From contig NC_092678.1 in NCBI RefSeq assembly GCF_964355755.1, positions 829,922 through 893,921 of the forward strand: a DNA stretch of 64,000 nucleotides, in the 5' to 3' direction. Position 1 is the first letter of the stretch; each line of letters opens with the position of its first letter. Shown piece after piece: positions 23,831 through 35,473 of the stretch. The translations under genes and the position numbers were made by a program. Origin of the DNA: Antedon mediterranea. Lineage: Eukaryota > Echinodermata > Crinoidea > Comatulida > Antedonidae. The notes below the pieces were generated by a model, which did no database searches, had not been told where the DNA came from, and was given only the letters and a program-made list of their open reading frames with translations.

Positions 23831-25309
23831 TCAATTACCACTCACTGTACAATTGTTTTGTTTTTGTGTGCGTTGTTGCATGTCTTTTTGACAAATAAAG
23901 TTAACATTTTCTTTGCCAACGTCAATGATTGTTAAGGGATCACTTTCACTCGTATTTGAGTTTGGCTTTTTTAGAGACGTTTCAAACACATTTACTTCAT
24001 AGTCAATGACGCTTTTCTTTTTTTCAAATGTGTTGATCACGCGTTCATTCTGACGCGGTTTGTTCTGTCGGTTCAAATAAAACCGAGATCGGAAACTGGT
24101 GAAACGAGAAGAAAATCTCGGATTTGCTTTGTCGAGGGGGTCATATTGCCGAAGTGGTTGCGTAGCAACAAAGCACATCGTGATTAACATTCCAATTTCG
24201 CATATTCTAAAGATTGTCTGGTAAGTCCACCAAGGCCACGGTTGCGGTTCCGCACGGGCGTTCGGTGCATAAACCACCAACATACCGTATAGCTGAAGAC
24301 CGCATAAGCAAAGCCCGAGCAACGCAGTGATTAGCGTTACCTTAACGGCGCTTCCCCAACGCACTTTGGGTTTCTTTGGTTCAATCGTAGAATTCGACTG
24401 AGCGTGTGAAATAAGACTAAGATGGTTTATCTCCTTCGATACACGTACGGCGGATCTGTGCAGTCGTCGAAAAATCAACAAATAACTGAAGAAAAGAAAG
24501 CTACCCCAGAAGATGAACGCCGATTGACAAAGATAAAGGACAATCTCTGGCGCAAGAAATTTGCCTGCTAACACATCTGATGTAATCGATAAAATGTAAT
24601 GAAATGTTATAATCAATCCAAGAACTTGCGGACGTTGAATTTTACGCGACAACGGCTGCATTTTAGTGGCACTCAACAGCGCCATGAATAAGATGCTAAA
24701 CGACGAAGTCAAACACGGAAACCCTAGCCCAAGCATCACATAAATGGCGGGTAAGGGCAACATGTTTTTCGATCCGTACGGGTCGACAAGAAGAAATGCA
24801 GCTCGATCAACGGCCATGATCAAAACGATTACGTTTAATGCCACAAAATATGATTTACTAGCCAGTTTTGCTGTGCTGAGTTTGATAATACAAAAGAATG
24901 AATATGCACCAATGACGGCAAACAAGCCACCACAAAAATAACAGTGAAACTGCCAACTCCAGCCCCACACATCATAAGCAATTGTCCAATTAGGGGTAGG
25001 CTCAGCAAATGCTTCATTCTGATCATCTCCTGGTTCACCTTCCGGTTCTGGCTCACCTTCCGGTTCACCCTCCGGTTCAGCCTCTGGTTCTACCTCGGTT
25101 TCAGTTTCTGGTTTGGTCTCTACTTCTGGTTCGGTTTCAACTATGGGTTCATTTTCAACTTTGGGCTCCGATTCGCTTTCCGGTTCAGGTGTTGCGGTGG
25201 CAACAACACTTTGCCTTCTGATACGGACAATTTGGCGGTCTAATGTGAATCCAGTGCATAAAACAAGGCAACATAAAAACACAGTGCACTTTAGTGAACT
25301 AAACAACAT
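23831..25309 (-). CDS. PRRT3/PRRT4-like seven-segment membrane protein
   Basis: A complete single-exon frame of 492 aa. Residues 1-22 form a signal peptide ([10 protein letters not shown] core). Residues 40-95 are a Glu/Pro-rich repeat ([16 protein letters not shown]). About seven hydrophobic segments follow, near 121-143, 153-173, 187-212, 227-247, 256-280, 322-347 and 364-385, then a roughly 105-residue basic, polar tail. The segment [20 protein letters not shown] and the end [20 protein letters not shown] resemble the conserved membrane block of vertebrate proline-rich transmembrane proteins 3 and 4, whose function is poorly known. A Glu-rich ectodomain replaces the usual Pro-rich one. The start is the first ATG and is followed by the signal peptide. 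An intron-containing 5' UTR cannot be excluded. The family call is from memory of the motif pattern. Confidence 0.8.
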
Positions 25310-25319
25310 GATGTTAGTT

Positions 25320-26963
25320 AAATAATTATTCCAAATCCGACCTGAAAATTGGATCTTTTAAAGTATTTCCTTTCTGACAGTCATGAGAGAATCTTCACGT
25401 AAATATCCTATTCCTTTACCCTGTAAGATAAAACATTTATACCGGTAAATTAATACTAATACAGTAGGTAAGGTTGGTACTGAATGTTCACATTTACTGA
25501 CATTAATAAAAGCTGGTATATGCTCTTTCATGATTGTAAACAATTATAATAAAGCTTTATTCAAACATGAAAACTTGGCTCAACTATCAGTTCTGCAAGG
25601 CTGTGCTTAAAAACAAAATTTACAATAATGGTTATTGAGGTATGGCACAACACTTGTACACTTACAGTACTATATGCATAGAGGTATAATTGTTTTTTAA
25701 ATTGTTAATGTTATACCTTCATGCTCTATGGCTACCAAAATGCACTTTTAATAGAAAATTAAATTACACAAACCAGTAGTGCTATTGTCGGTTTATACAG
25801 GTATGTAGGCACGATATAGACTGCAAAATTATATAATCAAAAGAAAATGTTCAATACGTGTTAAACTCTGTTTGATTAAGACGTAAATGTAGCCACCTGT
25901 CAATTATATCGGCTAGTCTCAATTGTTTTGTGTCCCTAGAGAAATGGCGTGCGATACATCAATATTCTTAATGACCACAGCCCAATAGCTAATGCTTTAA
26001 GTTAAGTAGTATTTTTGTCATTAACGTAATTACTGTACTGTATACATTTGTTAACCTATGATGGATCCTTATCTTTGTAACATCTTTAACAATAAAATTC
26101 AATTAAATCATTCTTAATTGTTTTAATTTACAGTTACTATTTATACATTTTAAAAATGAATTTGTACCTTATTAATCCATCATTGTTACCTTAATAATTT
26201 AATTGTGAAAAATATTCTAAAATAGTACGGTTTCAATTATAAATTTTATATAAATAAATGAAATAATTCTAAATATATTTTTTTTAATGCTTAGTAATAG
26301 TTAGTCTACTCTTACTGTAGATAAGAATTAAGAGAAAGAGATCAATTATTTAATAAATAATATTGGTATTATATAAATTTTGTAAATTTGATTCATCATC
26401 ATCTCTCATTGCATATAGTACGGCCCAACCAATGCCAATGGAAATCCATCTATAACAATTAAAATAATATTACATTGTTTATATAGTGTAAAACTACAAT
26501 AGGTAGTCTAGGCCAAGGTCGGGTTCGTCGGAGCGAATCTAACAAATCAACTGGTAGCAGGTAAAACCACTGCACTGGACATACCACGTCCTTGAATCAG
26601 ATTCCGCAAAATGATGAGGGCTAGAAAAATTAGAATATAAAAACAACTTTATCAAAGTTTATAAAATACTTACGATTAAGATTTCTGATACTTAAGATTA
26701 AGTCACTGTACATGTGTACTTAGTACCGTTTATGCTGGTTTGTTTGTATGATAATTCATCTGACAATAATATTTCCAATCGTCTGCTTAGTGTCGTGGTA
26801 CACAGTAGTAGTAGAAGAGCCAATGTTGTGTGGGTTTCAAATTTAATAACAATGTGCGTGCTTAGACTTACTGAGTCATGATTAGTTTGTTCGTATTGAT
26901 TACTTATTAAACCACATGGGGGCGACAGACCAATGACGTCGTTAATTTAAATATAGGAAATAA
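25320..26963. other. Upstream flank of the PRRT-like gene, no gene seen
   Basis: AT-rich sequence that should contain the PRRT-like promoter, though no TATA box or CpG-rich block stands out. The 61-codon frame at 25358-25543 has no support. Confidence 0.45.
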
Positions 26964-31238: not shown

Positions 31239-31977
31239 TTACAGTTCCGATACTTGAATATTAATTCCAGCGGTCATATGTCCGTTCATAGGCTCAACGC
31301 CACCTTCTGTAGGTGAGGGTAGAAATGTTGGGTTTATTATTCCGACCATAACTGTTCCATTTTCAGTAGTTGATGTTGATGGCCGATCTACAGACCTCAA
31401 TGACTTAGTCGGCCGATGATGAGTGCGAGGTAATGGCGTTGGTTTTGGATGGTCAACTGACCTACTTCGTTGACCGCTTGGTGCAGCACCATTTGGCAAA
31501 CCCAATCGACCATTTGTTTGGCCACCACCTTGACTGACCACGTATTTTAATGACGTGGGTCGTTTAGATCCAGGTGGCGGGGGTGGAGGTGGGTCCGAAT
31601 TTGGCAGTTCATAGTTCGAATCGACCTCTGTCTCGATGGGAGGAACGTCATATAAATGTGTTCTTTTTCGATTTGGGTATTTCATATAAATGCCCTTGTT
31701 AGTCTCGGGGGGTAGGCTGCGAGGCCTCGATAAACTACGTGTCATAGGGATCTGTAATAGCATAGAAGATTTCTGTTCAGAAATACATGAGGGACAGCGG
31801 TGTGGCAGCTTAGGCGGTCGTCGTGATGACGGCGGTAATGTTTTACTTTTAACTAACGCAAATTGTGGTAGTTCCTCGTATATTGGAGATCTAAACACAG
31901 AGCTTTGATGACTGCACACTGATATTGTGGATGACATGTAGATATCCTCTTGAATTTCTTTTTCTTTTTGTTGTTTT
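31239..31977 (-). CDS. PCSK9-module receptor exon 10: cytoplasmic tail
   Basis: About 245 residues, Pro/Ser/Arg rich, opening KQQKEKEIQEDIYM. Tyr motifs SPIYEEL, LYDVPP and NYELP and a seven-proline run are candidate SH2 and SH3 sites. The first ATG is internal: splicing at the TTCTTCTAG acceptor extends the frame upstream. Confidence 0.85.
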
Positions 31978-34900
31978 CTAGAAGAAAAAAATACAGTTTT
32001 ACTTATAATATTTAATAATTGAATAAATCCTGCTTTGTTTAAAAATCTGTTTAAATGCAGTCACTTAGCAATATTATCCAATTAATTTAAGCAAACTAAA
32101 ACGGTTTATTTTTTATTTTTAAGTATTGCTACTTTGAACTTACCTTTTGTAACAATATAAACATATGAATAATAAAACTACGATTATTAATGCCCCACCG
32201 GCAACAAACAAAGCATACTGAGGAATGTATATACCTAGAAAAAAACCAAAACAAATACAGTGCAATTAGTATGCGGCAAATAATAAAATAGAATGGAAAA
32301 ACAGCGTGCTCTATATCGTCACACAAAAATGTTCAAAATGTCTATTTTAGCAACGACCACAGCGCACAGCGTGTTTTACTTTTAATGCAACTCAAACGCG
32401 TAGTGATTAACGTTTGTTATTTTTTTGTTATAATTATGTGAGACGAAATAAATGAAATGAAATGAAATGAAATGACATGGAGCAGAAAAAAGAGCGCCCT
32501 CTATAACGTCACACACGAATGTTCACAAATCGATAAAGTTTTGCGTCGTACACGGCGGCAATTGCGTACCGCGCGCGGTCAAAATTAAACCCTCAAAGAC
32601 TAACTACACTACTATAATAATCAAACCTAGTCAGGATTAAAAGAAAATAAATTCGCCACTAAATTCACTAAAAGACATGGTGAAAATATTTACCGGACTT
32701 TGTACATTGTAGCTGTGTACCAGACCATTCACCGTTAGCGCCACATTCTCGTTGGCGGTCTCCTGACGCTCTATCAAACCCATCCTGGCAGTCAAACGTA
32801 ACACTATCACCTGTCTTATATACGGCCATGTTGTTGCTAATGACAACCACGTCTTGAGGTGTGTCCAATGACTCGCATGTAGCCCCTGTATTCAATCAAC
32901 AATAAAAATACAATTTGTTAGTTAAGTCTTTCATAATCCAGTTTGACTGGCCTTTGTGTTGTCTTAGTGTGAGACTATAATAAATAAATATACTACTAAA
33001 ATACTCACTTGTCGGCGGTGCGTTTGTTGAAGTTGTCGTTGGTAAATTATTCGTGGAGTGCGAGCCATTTGTAGGTTGGACTGGGATCTCAGTGGTTGTA
33101 TCAACTGTTACTAAATAATGATAGAAATGATACATTTTGTTTATATGAGGCGAGTTTTAACGAGGCTTGTAGCATTAAAACCAATTTAAACAGACGAGCG
33201 GTAATAAAAAAATATAGAACCTATGTTATGTGTTTACACACAACGCGGAGCGGACGAAGTTTCCACTCCGTATAGTTACATATTCTACGTGGGACAAGCT
33301 AAGCGGTTTTCCGCTTACAGTTACCGCTCGTCGGTGTAAATTGGCATTTAGTCTGTGCTAAACACATTGACAATAAAAAAGTGTTTTACGAACCTGTCCG
33401 GCAGCAAACAGCTACGGCCCATATACCTTCGCCTCCAGTACCATATGCACTGCATACGTTGCTGTCTGTGGATGAATAACAATCAAATAAAAAACGTTCA
33501 GTCATAAACACATTCTTCCTTTAGTCGTTACTAATTATCCATCATATATTTACTCTTCCATATATTTTTAAACCCATTCATCGTTAATCTACCTGCACCC
33601 ATAACTCCTTGCATCACTTACCAATGATTGCACCTTTCGGGTTACTTAATGTCTCGTTACTGGTGTGGACATTACAACCGGTCATCGTCCAGCCCGGGTT
33701 ACAATTTACTCCGACCAATACACTCCTGGATGATGTCTTCACGTGACATTCAAGACCTGGTGCTCGACAACATGCTGCATTTGGGGCTAAAGATTACAAC
33801 ATAAAGATGTAAATAAAGAACATAGAGGGCGTGATGTTAACACACTGCTGATTATTCTATTATCAAATTCTTTTCATAAGATTCAATTCATTAGATTCAA
33901 TTCATTTTCATAAATGTTTCTAAGCGCTTTACACACAAAACAGAAAGAATTATTAAAAAAACATTGATATTAACATTGCTATTCTTGGCCGGCTGGCCGG
34001 AACATCAAGAAGCATTTGTTACGTCGAATTCTTTAGTATTTACTTATTTATTTACTTATACTTACTGATTGATCGACAGCTGTAAGCATTACACATGTTG
34101 TTATTTAATTCCTCCTCTGCATTACTACTTATTGATGAGGGCGTTATGCCCGATACTCCTGGACTTGCACCTCGAACACATGAAAAATGAGAATGCGCCA
34201 TACAACCTAAGAAGTACGCAAATAATACGTACGCACAAATCAAAAACAATTATAGCATGTTCAATAAAACGTTTTTGTAAATATTTGTTGTTTACATTAT
34301 ATTTAGGCAAATTGCCAAGGATGACCATAAGTGAATTTATTCACTATCCTTCTTAAAGGTGGCAATCCTGTTCAAAAGAGATACGTCATATACACAAGAT
34401 GCTGTACATAAACAGTCTTAGTAAACAACGATATGGATATTTATCCGACATGATGTAGTGAATTATGATTGAGTTTGTAGAATAGGGACGGCTATCCTGA
34501 TGCATGACGTCGTGTCGGGCACGTACGTGGGGCATATAATAATCTACGTAATTTGTTACTCTTACCAACAGCTACGTCATCATCATTTGGACAGGTGACA
34601 CTGTTTACTCCATGTGTATCTAAATCGCCGATACTTGAGGGCGTAGATGGATAGGAACACTGCATGCCCGTCCACGTGCAGCACCTAGCGTACGCTATAA
34701 CACCTGTTATATAATAACAAACAAATAAGGGGGAAATAATGATATAGTCTATGTAATGGTTACATGTACATATCCATCTACAATAATCCATCTACTTTTG
34801 GTCCATTATTCAATCCAAAAAAAAATTGTTTTACACATTATAGTCTTAATACAAATGGAATCAAAGAGTAATAGAATAAACAAATTGTTTCTATAGACAA

Positions 34901-35473
34901 TCTTAGTATTGTCTATAGAAAAGAGGAAGTAACATGTAATTGTTCAATTACTGATGACGTAATTATAAGCACATTTTAATATGTTGTTTATAATTTATCC
35001 AACTTCTTTATGATGTTAGAAATGGTAACTCATACATACCTCGCCCAAATTTCCCATTGTAAGCTCTACATGTTATAGCGCCATCACCATCTACCTCAAT
35101 CATCTCTCCATCTCGTCTACCTTCATCTACGTCATTTTCACCGAATGACAAACATGACGTCATAACCTCATTATCTCTACATCTTACTTCGCTAAAGTTA
35201 TCATCATCGGTTCCAGACAGCTCTGAATAACTGGTAGTACAGACGGGCTCAGCACTCTGAAAAAACAACAGGGGCCTAAGTTAAACTAGTAACGGTACAA
35301 GGCAAAAAATATGTACGAAAACCAGTAATATGTCAGAGATTAACCCCTAAATTAATCCAGTTTAATCTGGTATGCTGATCTACATCCGGGGATTCCTTTT
35401 AACTTACCTGAGAGTATATTGTTTGTATTACCATCAGTGAGATTATTATAAATTGTCGGAAGATCATCTTCAT
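31239..35473 (-). CDS. Type I membrane receptor: PCSK9 C-terminal-like modules, sushi, TM, Tyr/Pro tail (10 exons)
   Basis: Hand-built from GT-AG sites; the ten exons sum to 1923 nt and join in phase (640 aa). Residues 1-22 are the signal peptide, 23-266 three Cys-rich modules, 267-300 a Ser/Thr/Pro stalk, 301-364 a sushi domain with four Cys, about 367-392 a membrane helix and 395-640 the cytoplasmic tail. The modules show the PCSK9 C-terminal (Cys/His-rich, resistin-like) pattern: ITCRAYNGKFGRG then VIAYARCC; CCRAPGLECHVK; CNPGWTMTGC; GGEGIWAVAVCCR. Modules 1 and 3 have six Cys, module 2 eight. PCSK9's prodomain and subtilisin domain are absent, so it is not a protease. The tail carries SPIYEEL, LYDVPP, NYELP and a run of seven prolines, candidate SH2/SH3 docking sites. 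Ligand and role are unknown. It is downstream of, and parallel to, the cytokine-receptor-like gene. Confidence 0.85.
32144..32234 (-). CDS. PCSK9-module receptor exon 9: transmembrane helix
   Basis: YALFVAGGALIIVVLLFICL then YCYK, a single hydrophobic helix followed by basic residues. Phase 1 in, phase 2 out. Confidence 0.85.
32694..32885 (-). CDS. PCSK9-module receptor exon 8: sushi domain
   Basis: Four Cys at sushi spacing: ATCES, VTFDCQDGF, RECGANGEWSG and LQCTKS. Phase 1 in and out, the usual exon form of this module. Confidence 0.9.
33009..33110 (-). CDS. PCSK9-module receptor exon 7: Ser/Thr/Pro stalk
   Basis: 34 residues rich in Thr, Ser, Pro and Asn (LPTTTSTNAPPT), consistent with an O-glycosylated spacer. 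Phase 1 in and out, so it can be skipped in frame. Confidence 0.75.
33183..33362 (+). mobile_element. MITE family C copy 2, intronic
   Basis: GACGAGCGGTAATAA at the left is inverted at the right as TTACCGCTCGTC, followed by TGTAAATTGGCATTTAG. Interior GGACAAGCTAAGCGGTTTTC matches copy 1 at 21968. It lies in the intron between exons 6 and 7 of the PCSK9-module receptor gene. Confidence 0.7.
33394..33465 (-). CDS. PCSK9-module receptor exon 6: module 3 end
   Basis: SNVCSAYGTGGEGIWAVAVC then CRT closes module 3, with the CC pair typical of the domain. Phase 1 in and out. Confidence 0.85.
33622..33786 (-). CDS. PCSK9-module receptor exon 5: module 2 end, module 3
   Basis: ACCRAPGLECHVK followed by CNPGWTMTGC is the clearest PCSK9 module-3-like segment in the gene. 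Phase 1 in and out. Confidence 0.85.
34066..34206 (-). CDS. PCSK9-module receptor exon 4: module 2
   Basis: Starts with the G-C of the conserved GC turn (GCMAHSHFSC) and ends NMCNAYSCRSI. It adds two Cys beyond the usual six. Phase 1 in and out. Confidence 0.75.
34566..34703 (-). CDS. PCSK9-module receptor exon 3: module 1 end, module 2 start
   Basis: VIAYARCC closes module 1. CTWTGMQC and VTCPNDDDVAVG open module 2. Phase 1 in and out. Confidence 0.8.
35040..35256 (-). CDS. PCSK9-module receptor exon 2: module 1
   Basis: Encodes four of the six module-1 Cys and ends ITCRAYNGKFGRG, which aligns by eye with the VCRAHN-type strand of PCSK9 module 1. Phase 0 in, phase 1 out (donor GTATGT). Confidence 0.8.
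35408..35473 (-). CDS. PCSK9-module receptor exon 1: signal peptide
   Basis: MKMIFRQFIIISLMVIQTIY then SQ, ending at the GTAAGT donor in phase 0. An AG at 35490-35491 just upstream of the ATG suggests an additional 5' UTR exon. Confidence 0.75.

Follow-up and report, generated by a model that had tools for sequence, protein, structure and literature searches.

Gene structure

The window comprises the whole stretch of Antedon mediterranea DNA that was analysed, 64,000 nucleotides of contig NC_092678.1. A gene of ten exons was located on its minus strand (35473..31239) with a product of 640 residues followed by a stop codon. All nine introns are GT-AG and join the exons in phase into one frame. 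These junctions bear out the coordinates, strand, length and single ten-exon frame given in the original prediction. From its N-terminus the protein has a signal peptide and three cysteine-rich modules, then a Thr-rich stalk that leads to one sushi domain; a single transmembrane helix and a tail of ∼243 residues complete it. An in-frame stop lies four codons upstream of the start codon. At the base composition of the window the chance of all exon lengths being open is ∼2e-21, and GC content is 0.447 in the exons compared with 0.316 in the introns.

Exon 1 (35408..35473; this and all following coordinates are minus strand) contains the start codon and the predicted signal peptide, residues 1-22, assigned from a hydrophobic leader. 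Most of the first PCSK9-type module is encoded by exon 2 (35040..35256), with the Pfam PCSK9_C1 match spanning residues 27-106. Splicing and cysteine alignment place the end of module 1, with its closing CC, and the start of module 2 in exon 3 (34566..34703). Module 2 continues in exon 4 (34066..34206), which includes C150 and C184, two cysteines absent from the human alignment; PCSK9_C2 was below cut-off here. Exon 5 (33622..33786) encodes the CC that ends module 2 and most of module 3, with the PCSK9_C3 match at residues 195-266, and the closing CC of module 3 is reached by splicing to exon 6 (33394..33465), after which the intron 6 donor, gttcgt, is poor. The four motif groups quoted in the original prediction were all present; CRAYN-GRG-VIAYARCC runs across intron 2 and the remaining three each lie inside one exon.

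The Thr-rich stalk is encoded by exon 7 (33009..33110) and contains one N-glycosylation sequon (residue 281). The sushi domain (residues 304-361) was matched by Pfam in exon 8 (32694..32885). A transmembrane helix with its core at residues ∼372-390 was predicted in exon 9 (32144..32234), and exon 10 (31239..31977) encodes the putative cytoplasmic tail with seven Tyr, a poly-proline run, the motif NPTF and the stop codon.

Comparison with PCSK9

Profile matches were accepted at the gathering cut-off of each Pfam model. PCSK9_C1 (E 1.7e-16, 60.6 bits, cut-off 31.3) and PCSK9_C3 (E 7.9e-12, 45.6 bits, cut-off 26.7) passed, as did the sushi domain, while the best PCSK9_C2 score of 18.8 bits was under its threshold of 26.1. 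A search of NCBIfam with the protein gave no family match. Utilizing phmmer against the PDB, human PCSK9 was matched across all three modules (E 4.1e-20, the best match), and 17 of the 18 matches listed up to E 10 were PCSK9. Identity to the human domain is 38% (82 identities in 215 aligned columns). All 18 human cysteines are aligned, six per module, with C150 and C184 of module 2 in addition. The claim that PCSK9 C-terminal modules are present is upheld by the two Pfam matches, the phmmer match, the cysteines and the identity.

With the cysteines held fixed, the whole-domain alignment scored 26 SD above shuffled sequences, and none of 500 shuffles reached its score. The in-register pairs of modules 1 and 3 gave Z values of 18 and 13.7. 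The pairing of module 2 is weak (Z 2.1, reached by 18 of 500 shuffles), and this module was assigned because of module order and its cysteines. These comparisons establish, beyond chance, homology between the three modules and the C-terminal domain of PCSK9.

The PCSK9 C-terminal Cys/His-rich domain (PF18459, PF18464, PF18463) and the Antedon protein share a tandem arrangement of three modules whose order is identical, each with six matching cysteines and a closing CC. In PCSK9 the domain is histidine-rich and is divided into three beta subdomains, each of which has three disulfides (PMC3820617). The Antedon copy differs in standing on a predicted transmembrane protein, in being acidic and His-poor (5 in 240 residues, compared with 13 in 226 in the human domain), in the two further cysteines of module 2 and in the sub-threshold C2 profile. 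Its modules directly follow the signal peptide, whereas PCSK9 has a prodomain and an S8 domain at that place. Since His richness was treated as a trait of vertebrate PCSK9, homology of the domain is claimed rather than membership of the Cys/His-rich PCSK9 type.

In module 2, intron 3 interrupts the Gly codon that directly precedes the module's third cysteine (VAVG|C142). Intron 10 of human PCSK9 (after c.1681), which we take to split the matching Gly codon 561, was given no weight. At the place matching human c.1863+20, a position printed in PMC7959244, the Antedon gene has no intron.

Topology and tail motifs

One strong transmembrane segment was predicted in the protein. Three of the seven tail tyrosines are in Y-[DE]-x-[LP] sites, a number reached by 0 of 5000 shuffles for a pattern picked after the sequence had been viewed. 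The broader Y..P pattern was at chance level (P 0.28), as judged against shuffles, where SH3-type motifs gave P ∼0.48 and YxxPhi P 0.83. The poly-proline run (P 0.013) and a PDZ-like C-terminus (P 0.038) were less frequent in the shuffles. Signalling and endocytosis by the tail are inferred from these short motifs.

A stalk, sushi domain, single transmembrane helix and tail are also the parts of known sushi-containing type I membrane receptors. The Antedon tail differs in that no match to it beyond the transmembrane region was found elsewhere in its own genome. A query of sushi domain, transmembrane helix and tail gave 54 genome matches, three of which were the gene itself; the other 51 all stop by query residue 95 and cover the sushi domain and transmembrane helix only.

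Searches of the genome

No Pfam match to an S8 domain was found within the 640-residue protein. Among the matches listed, no S8 protease exon of the genome lay within ∼3.35 Mb of the gene, the nearest being on contig C9. The protease-free, membrane-anchored build put forward in the original prediction is supported, its membrane anchoring (signal peptide, ectodomain, one transmembrane helix, cytoplasmic tail) as a sequence prediction.

Proteinase-K-type S8 proteases belong to the subtilase group from which the catalytic half of PCSK9 originated. Those of this genome, among the matches listed, were on other contigs or >3 Mb from the gene. One exon on contig C4 matched PCSK9 catalytic chains at 2.3e-9, and the better matches were to keratinase, aqualysin and proteinase K (3.7e-29 and below).

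A second PCSK9_C gene was not found in the 354 Mb genome in a search of modest sensitivity. A further PCSK9_C3 match on contig C2 (24.6 bits, cut-off 26.7) contains three internal stops and lacks the closing CC, and one on contig C3 (18 bits) adjoins a tandem repeat and also lacks the closing CC; both were rejected. Three PF18464 matches on contig C2 (E 1.24-2.8) were below cut-off. No relative was confirmed among viral contigs (110 pattern matches) or prokaryote contigs (17).

Function

The sequence itself shows the homology, how the parts are ordered and that no S8 protease is attached. The best reading of the protein is a type I receptor: a single-pass surface protein with a complete three-module PCSK9-type domain as its putative ligand-binding part and a tail for signalling or uptake, to which we give a probability of approximately 0.7. 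The Thr-rich stalk and sushi domain would hold the three modules away from the membrane, where they may bind an extracellular partner. When phosphorylated, the Y-[DE]-x-[LP] sites could recruit SH2 adaptors. Proteins of the SH3/EVH1/profilin type could dock on the proline run, and NPTF may attract PTB adaptors of the endocytic machinery. It is proposed that by such recruitment bound cargo would be internalised and the cell signalled. LDLR degradation requires the PCSK9 C-terminal domain, which also binds APLP2 and annexin A2 (PMC5403857). The trafficking contact that this domain offers to membrane partners would in Antedon itself be part of a membrane protein. The ligands of PCSK9 need not be those of the receptor, as its domain is His-poor and acidic.

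The protein could instead serve adhesion or capture without signalling, with modules that bind to matrix, to microbes or to an adjacent cell and a tail that acts as a cytoskeletal anchor only. The poly-proline run and PDZ-like C-terminus would suit such anchoring, and a neighbouring gene encodes SRCR, kringle, F5/8C and sushi domains; the three acidic Tyr sites, above chance in the tail, argue against this reading, which we consider unlikely. The poor intron 6 donor would favour a soluble main or additional product, in which that intron is retained. Read-through of exon 6 yields AVAVCCRTGS and then a stop two residues past module 3, giving a secreted protein of 268 residues including the signal peptide, which might be a resistin-like signal or a decoy for the membrane form. 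The domain of PCSK9 is likewise secreted, and a structural resemblance to resistin is reported for it (PMC5403857). However, intron 6 (283 bases) contains neither AATAAA nor ATTAAA, and a soluble product leaves unexplained the in-phase exons 7-10, which encode a sushi domain that passes its cut-off, a transmembrane helix and a long open tail; its probability is judged to be low.

The same poor donor, together with an in-frame stop in a neighbouring gene, could indicate a wrong gene model, in which exons 2-6 come from a secreted gene, PCSK9-like or otherwise, and exons 7-10 from another receptor, or a pseudogene. Against this are the single start codon and its leader, nine in-phase GT-AG introns, a single terminal stop, the joint openness of ∼2e-21 and the absence of a nearby S8 exon among the matches listed, and an error of this kind is very improbable.

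Evolution

The protein is a known domain in a new architecture. PCSK9 is a major drug target, and to our knowledge the source of its C-terminal domain is not settled. On the receptor reading, a protease-free, membrane-bound carrier of the whole domain can serve as the outgroup in tests of the ancestral state. It also reveals which residues persist in the domain when no protease is attached, and is a simple system in which to look for binding partners of the modules. The presence of the domain on a receptor makes the origin of the PCSK9 tail a testable question. One speculative answer, which we hold to be rather doubtful, is that the domain originated as the extracellular part of a cargo-carrying membrane receptor and that vertebrate PCSK9 is a proteinase-K-like enzyme that gained it, the halves still being separate genes in this one genome. 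A receptor-first origin, if true, would account for PCSK9 acting as a trafficking handle with no use of proteolysis.

Resistin is a secreted cytokine, and the receptor may bear on the reported likeness of the domain to it. Structural similarity to resistin (RELM) has been reported for the PCSK9 C-terminal domain (PMC5403857); the Antedon protein had no resistin match among those listed in Pfam or the PDB. Among the titles and abstract openings listed from one open-licence library for PCSK9 evolution, sea urchin, amphioxus and resistin/receptor/transmembrane, no description of such a receptor was found, and the names and accessions of the three PCSK9_C models returned no papers there. A study of PCSK-family evolution covers placental mammals and does not use the word invertebrate (PMC8553125). 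Proteases named 'PCSK9' are reported from sea cucumbers (PMC5897022, PMC8467561) and 'PCSK9 superfamily' transcripts from a ribbon worm (PMC9132205); the excerpts of these papers mention the C-terminal domain neither way.

Adjacent genes

Upstream, the nearest two genes on the minus strand also resemble membrane receptors, with transmembrane segments judged by eye, and this favours the receptor reading. One neighbouring gene is that with the SRCR, kringle, F5/8C and sushi domains, and one contains an in-frame stop.

Gene model and domain organization

The window was placed at G000:C9:829922-893921 of the searched genome (G000, 354 Mb in 18 contigs; C9 is the contig carrying the window). A single tektin exon had PDB 8snb as its top match (174.7 bits, the runner-up 136.2); that entry comes from sea urchin, and to the extent of this one exon an echinoderm source is supported. 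Ten exons on the minus strand, from 35473 to 31239, were joined through GT-AG introns with unbroken phase into 640 residues plus a stop, bearing out the ten in-phase exons and single 640 aa frame of the original prediction. Intron 1 is of phase 0, introns 2-8 of phase 1 and intron 9 of phase 2. The joint chance of exons of these lengths all being open is ∼2e-21 at the base composition of the window, and GC content is 0.447 in exons versus 0.316 in introns. At its start the model encodes a hydrophobic leader; four codons upstream an in-frame stop closes the frame.

In a Pfam scan the product matched PCSK9_C1 (PF18459, residues 27-106, 1.7e-16), PCSK9_C3 (PF18463, residues 195-266, 7.9e-12) and sushi (residues 304-361, 1.2e-8), all above cut-off. 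Of the three predicted PCSK9 C-terminal modules, the first and third were recovered, but PCSK9_C2 (PF18464) fell below its cut-off, with E 0.028 in the whole protein and E 0.0016 in the isolated domain. The same scan gave an Orthoreo_P10 match (24.8 bits, cut-off 21.4, residues 347-417) and sub-threshold matches to two TM-segment models, TM_ErbB1 and Adeno_E3_CR2; these three were read as generic transmembrane/juxtamembrane composition. Hydropathy analysis located a single strong TM segment with its core at 372-390. The ectodomain contains three N-glycosylation sequons (42, 231 and 281) and the stalk has 12 Thr in 37 residues.

Relationship to PCSK9

A 248-residue piece (residues 23-270) was compared with the PDB using phmmer. 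Up to E 10, 17 of 18 sequences were PCSK9 (best 4.1e-20, query 5-244) and the sole other match was decoration protein gp29 at 0.29. Pairwise alignment with the human PCSK9 domain conserved 18/18 human cysteines, with 82 of 215 aligned columns identical (38%). Scores were compared with 500 shuffles in which cysteines were held fixed and every other residue was shuffled. The whole-domain score was 26 SD over the shuffle mean, with 0/500 shuffles as high. Among the cysteine-rich modules (M1-M3), Z was 18 for M1-M1 and 13.7 for M3-M3 and just 2.1 for M2-M2, where 18/500 shuffles equaled or exceeded the score; off-diagonal pairs reached Z 6.5 (window M3/human M1) and 5.2 (window M3/human M2). The simplest reading of these alignments is that the three-module arrangement is older than the split of the window gene from PCSK9; for module 2 this rests on position and cysteines. 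Unlike the human domain, the window domain has 5 rather than 13 His and 28/15 rather than 19/21 acidic/basic residues, and its module 2 carries two additional cysteines.

A second PCSK9_C gene was not found in the genome using the window domain, the three Pfam models or the human domain. The window domain gave 5 matches, each an exon of the window gene, PF18459 gave 1, also in the window gene, and the human domain gave 2, both in the window gene at 2.1e-4 and 0.0025. PF18463 gave 3 matches, with only that in the window gene above cut-off; the sequences of the other two were read and rejected. All 3 PF18464 matches were sub-threshold and none lay inside the window gene. Since the human query finds the window gene weakly and the PCSK9_C2 model misses it, a second copy, if diverged or finely split, could have escaped these searches.

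Cytoplasmic tail and proposed function

The tail comprises 243 residues with 7 Tyr, of which three (YEELP, YDVPP, YELPN) fit Y-[DE]-x-[LP], a pattern picked post hoc on the inspected sequence; 0/5000 shuffles reach three, and a wider form of the pattern has P 0.0006. The tail also has a seven-proline run at P 0.013, ends in SEL (P 0.038) and includes NPTF (P 0.063). Chance suffices for both SH3-type patterns examined (each at P 0.48), for Y..P at P 0.28 and for YxxPhi at P 0.83. Sites of such types generally bind SH2, SH3/EVH1, PTB or PDZ partners, and those of this tail may do likewise. A sushi + TM + tail query gave 54 genome matches up to E 1, three of them the window gene. None of the remaining 51 extended past query residue 95 and similarity is therefore limited to sushi and TM; the best was on contig C11, amid further stretches that look sushi-like by eye.

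The window protein is probably a receptor (probability roughly 0.7). The PCSK9-type domain, with stalk and sushi, would bind ligand outside the cell, and the single TM and motif-bearing tail would then signal or take cargo inside. According to an excerpt of PMC5403857, LDLR degradation requires the PCSK9 C-terminal domain, and APLP2 and annexin A2 bind it; this shows that the domain is able to act as a trafficking contact, and does not imply a ligand of the window protein. A role in adhesion is less probable than a receptor, as is a soluble form made by retention of intron 6. The donor of that intron, gttcgt, is the sole poor junction of the gene and read-through meets a stop after CCRTGS, but the intron has no poly(A) signal. 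A faulty gene model is likewise a lesser candidate. No protein of such architecture was described among the papers listed in the literature searches; the domain is known, and its architecture here is apparently new, though similar predicted proteins may already be in UniProt, InterPro or eukaryotic proteomes, unremarked.

S8 proteases in the genome

PF00082 gave 45 exon-level matches genome-wide (E up to 0.001). Those on C9 number three, at 4.245-4.250 Mb, ∼3.35 Mb from the window. Three S8 (subtilisin-type protease) places were sampled and their frames judged by eye: one on contig C10 is furin/kexin-like and both on contig C4 are proteinase-K-like. In a phmmer search with one of the C4 exons, the top matches (3.7e-29 and below) were proteinase-K-type enzymes, keratinase and aqualysin-1 among them; catalytic chains of PCSK9 came further down (best 2.3e-9, among the best 60 of 105). 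S8 exon matches are numerous on C4, for example at 2.73-2.78 Mb, the two sampled places being proteinase-K-type in look. They are perhaps an expanded family like the sea cucumber 'PCSK9' genes, at least nine of which are given for a transcriptome in an excerpt of PMC8467561.

Neighboring genes

Judged by eye, a 508-residue open frame (23831-25357, minus strand) starts like a leader and contains several hydrophobic segments as well as a stretch rich in Glu/Pro; its sole Pfam match was to a repetitive-protein model, below cut-off. The next two same-strand genes upstream of the window gene look like membrane receptors, which suggests an immune or surface-recognition setting. The scavenger-receptor-like gene (∼54664-43619, minus strand) has SRCR, kringle, F5/8C and sushi domains (Pfam on five frames); additional SRCR-like frames, then a TM and stop, were seen by eye. 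The other (42389-38148, minus strand) is class II cytokine-receptor-like (interferon/IL-10 receptor family), matching Tissue_fac (PF01108) at 2.6e-12 and, in the PDB, IL-20 receptor alpha best (6.4e-7), then IFNAR1 (4.7e-4). A TM segment and Tyr-containing tail were noted by eye. The frame read as its exon 39959-39707 has an in-frame TAA, which is one of a null allele, a pseudogene, a mis-modeled exon or an assembly error. Class II cytokine receptors are chiefly known from vertebrates, and a literature search for one in echinoderms gave no related report. Five further Tissue_fac matches above cut-off (27.2-30.2 bits) lie at G000:C3:26544674-26710456 within long open frames of 1022-1332 residues, whereas the Tissue_fac gene of the window is made of short exons.
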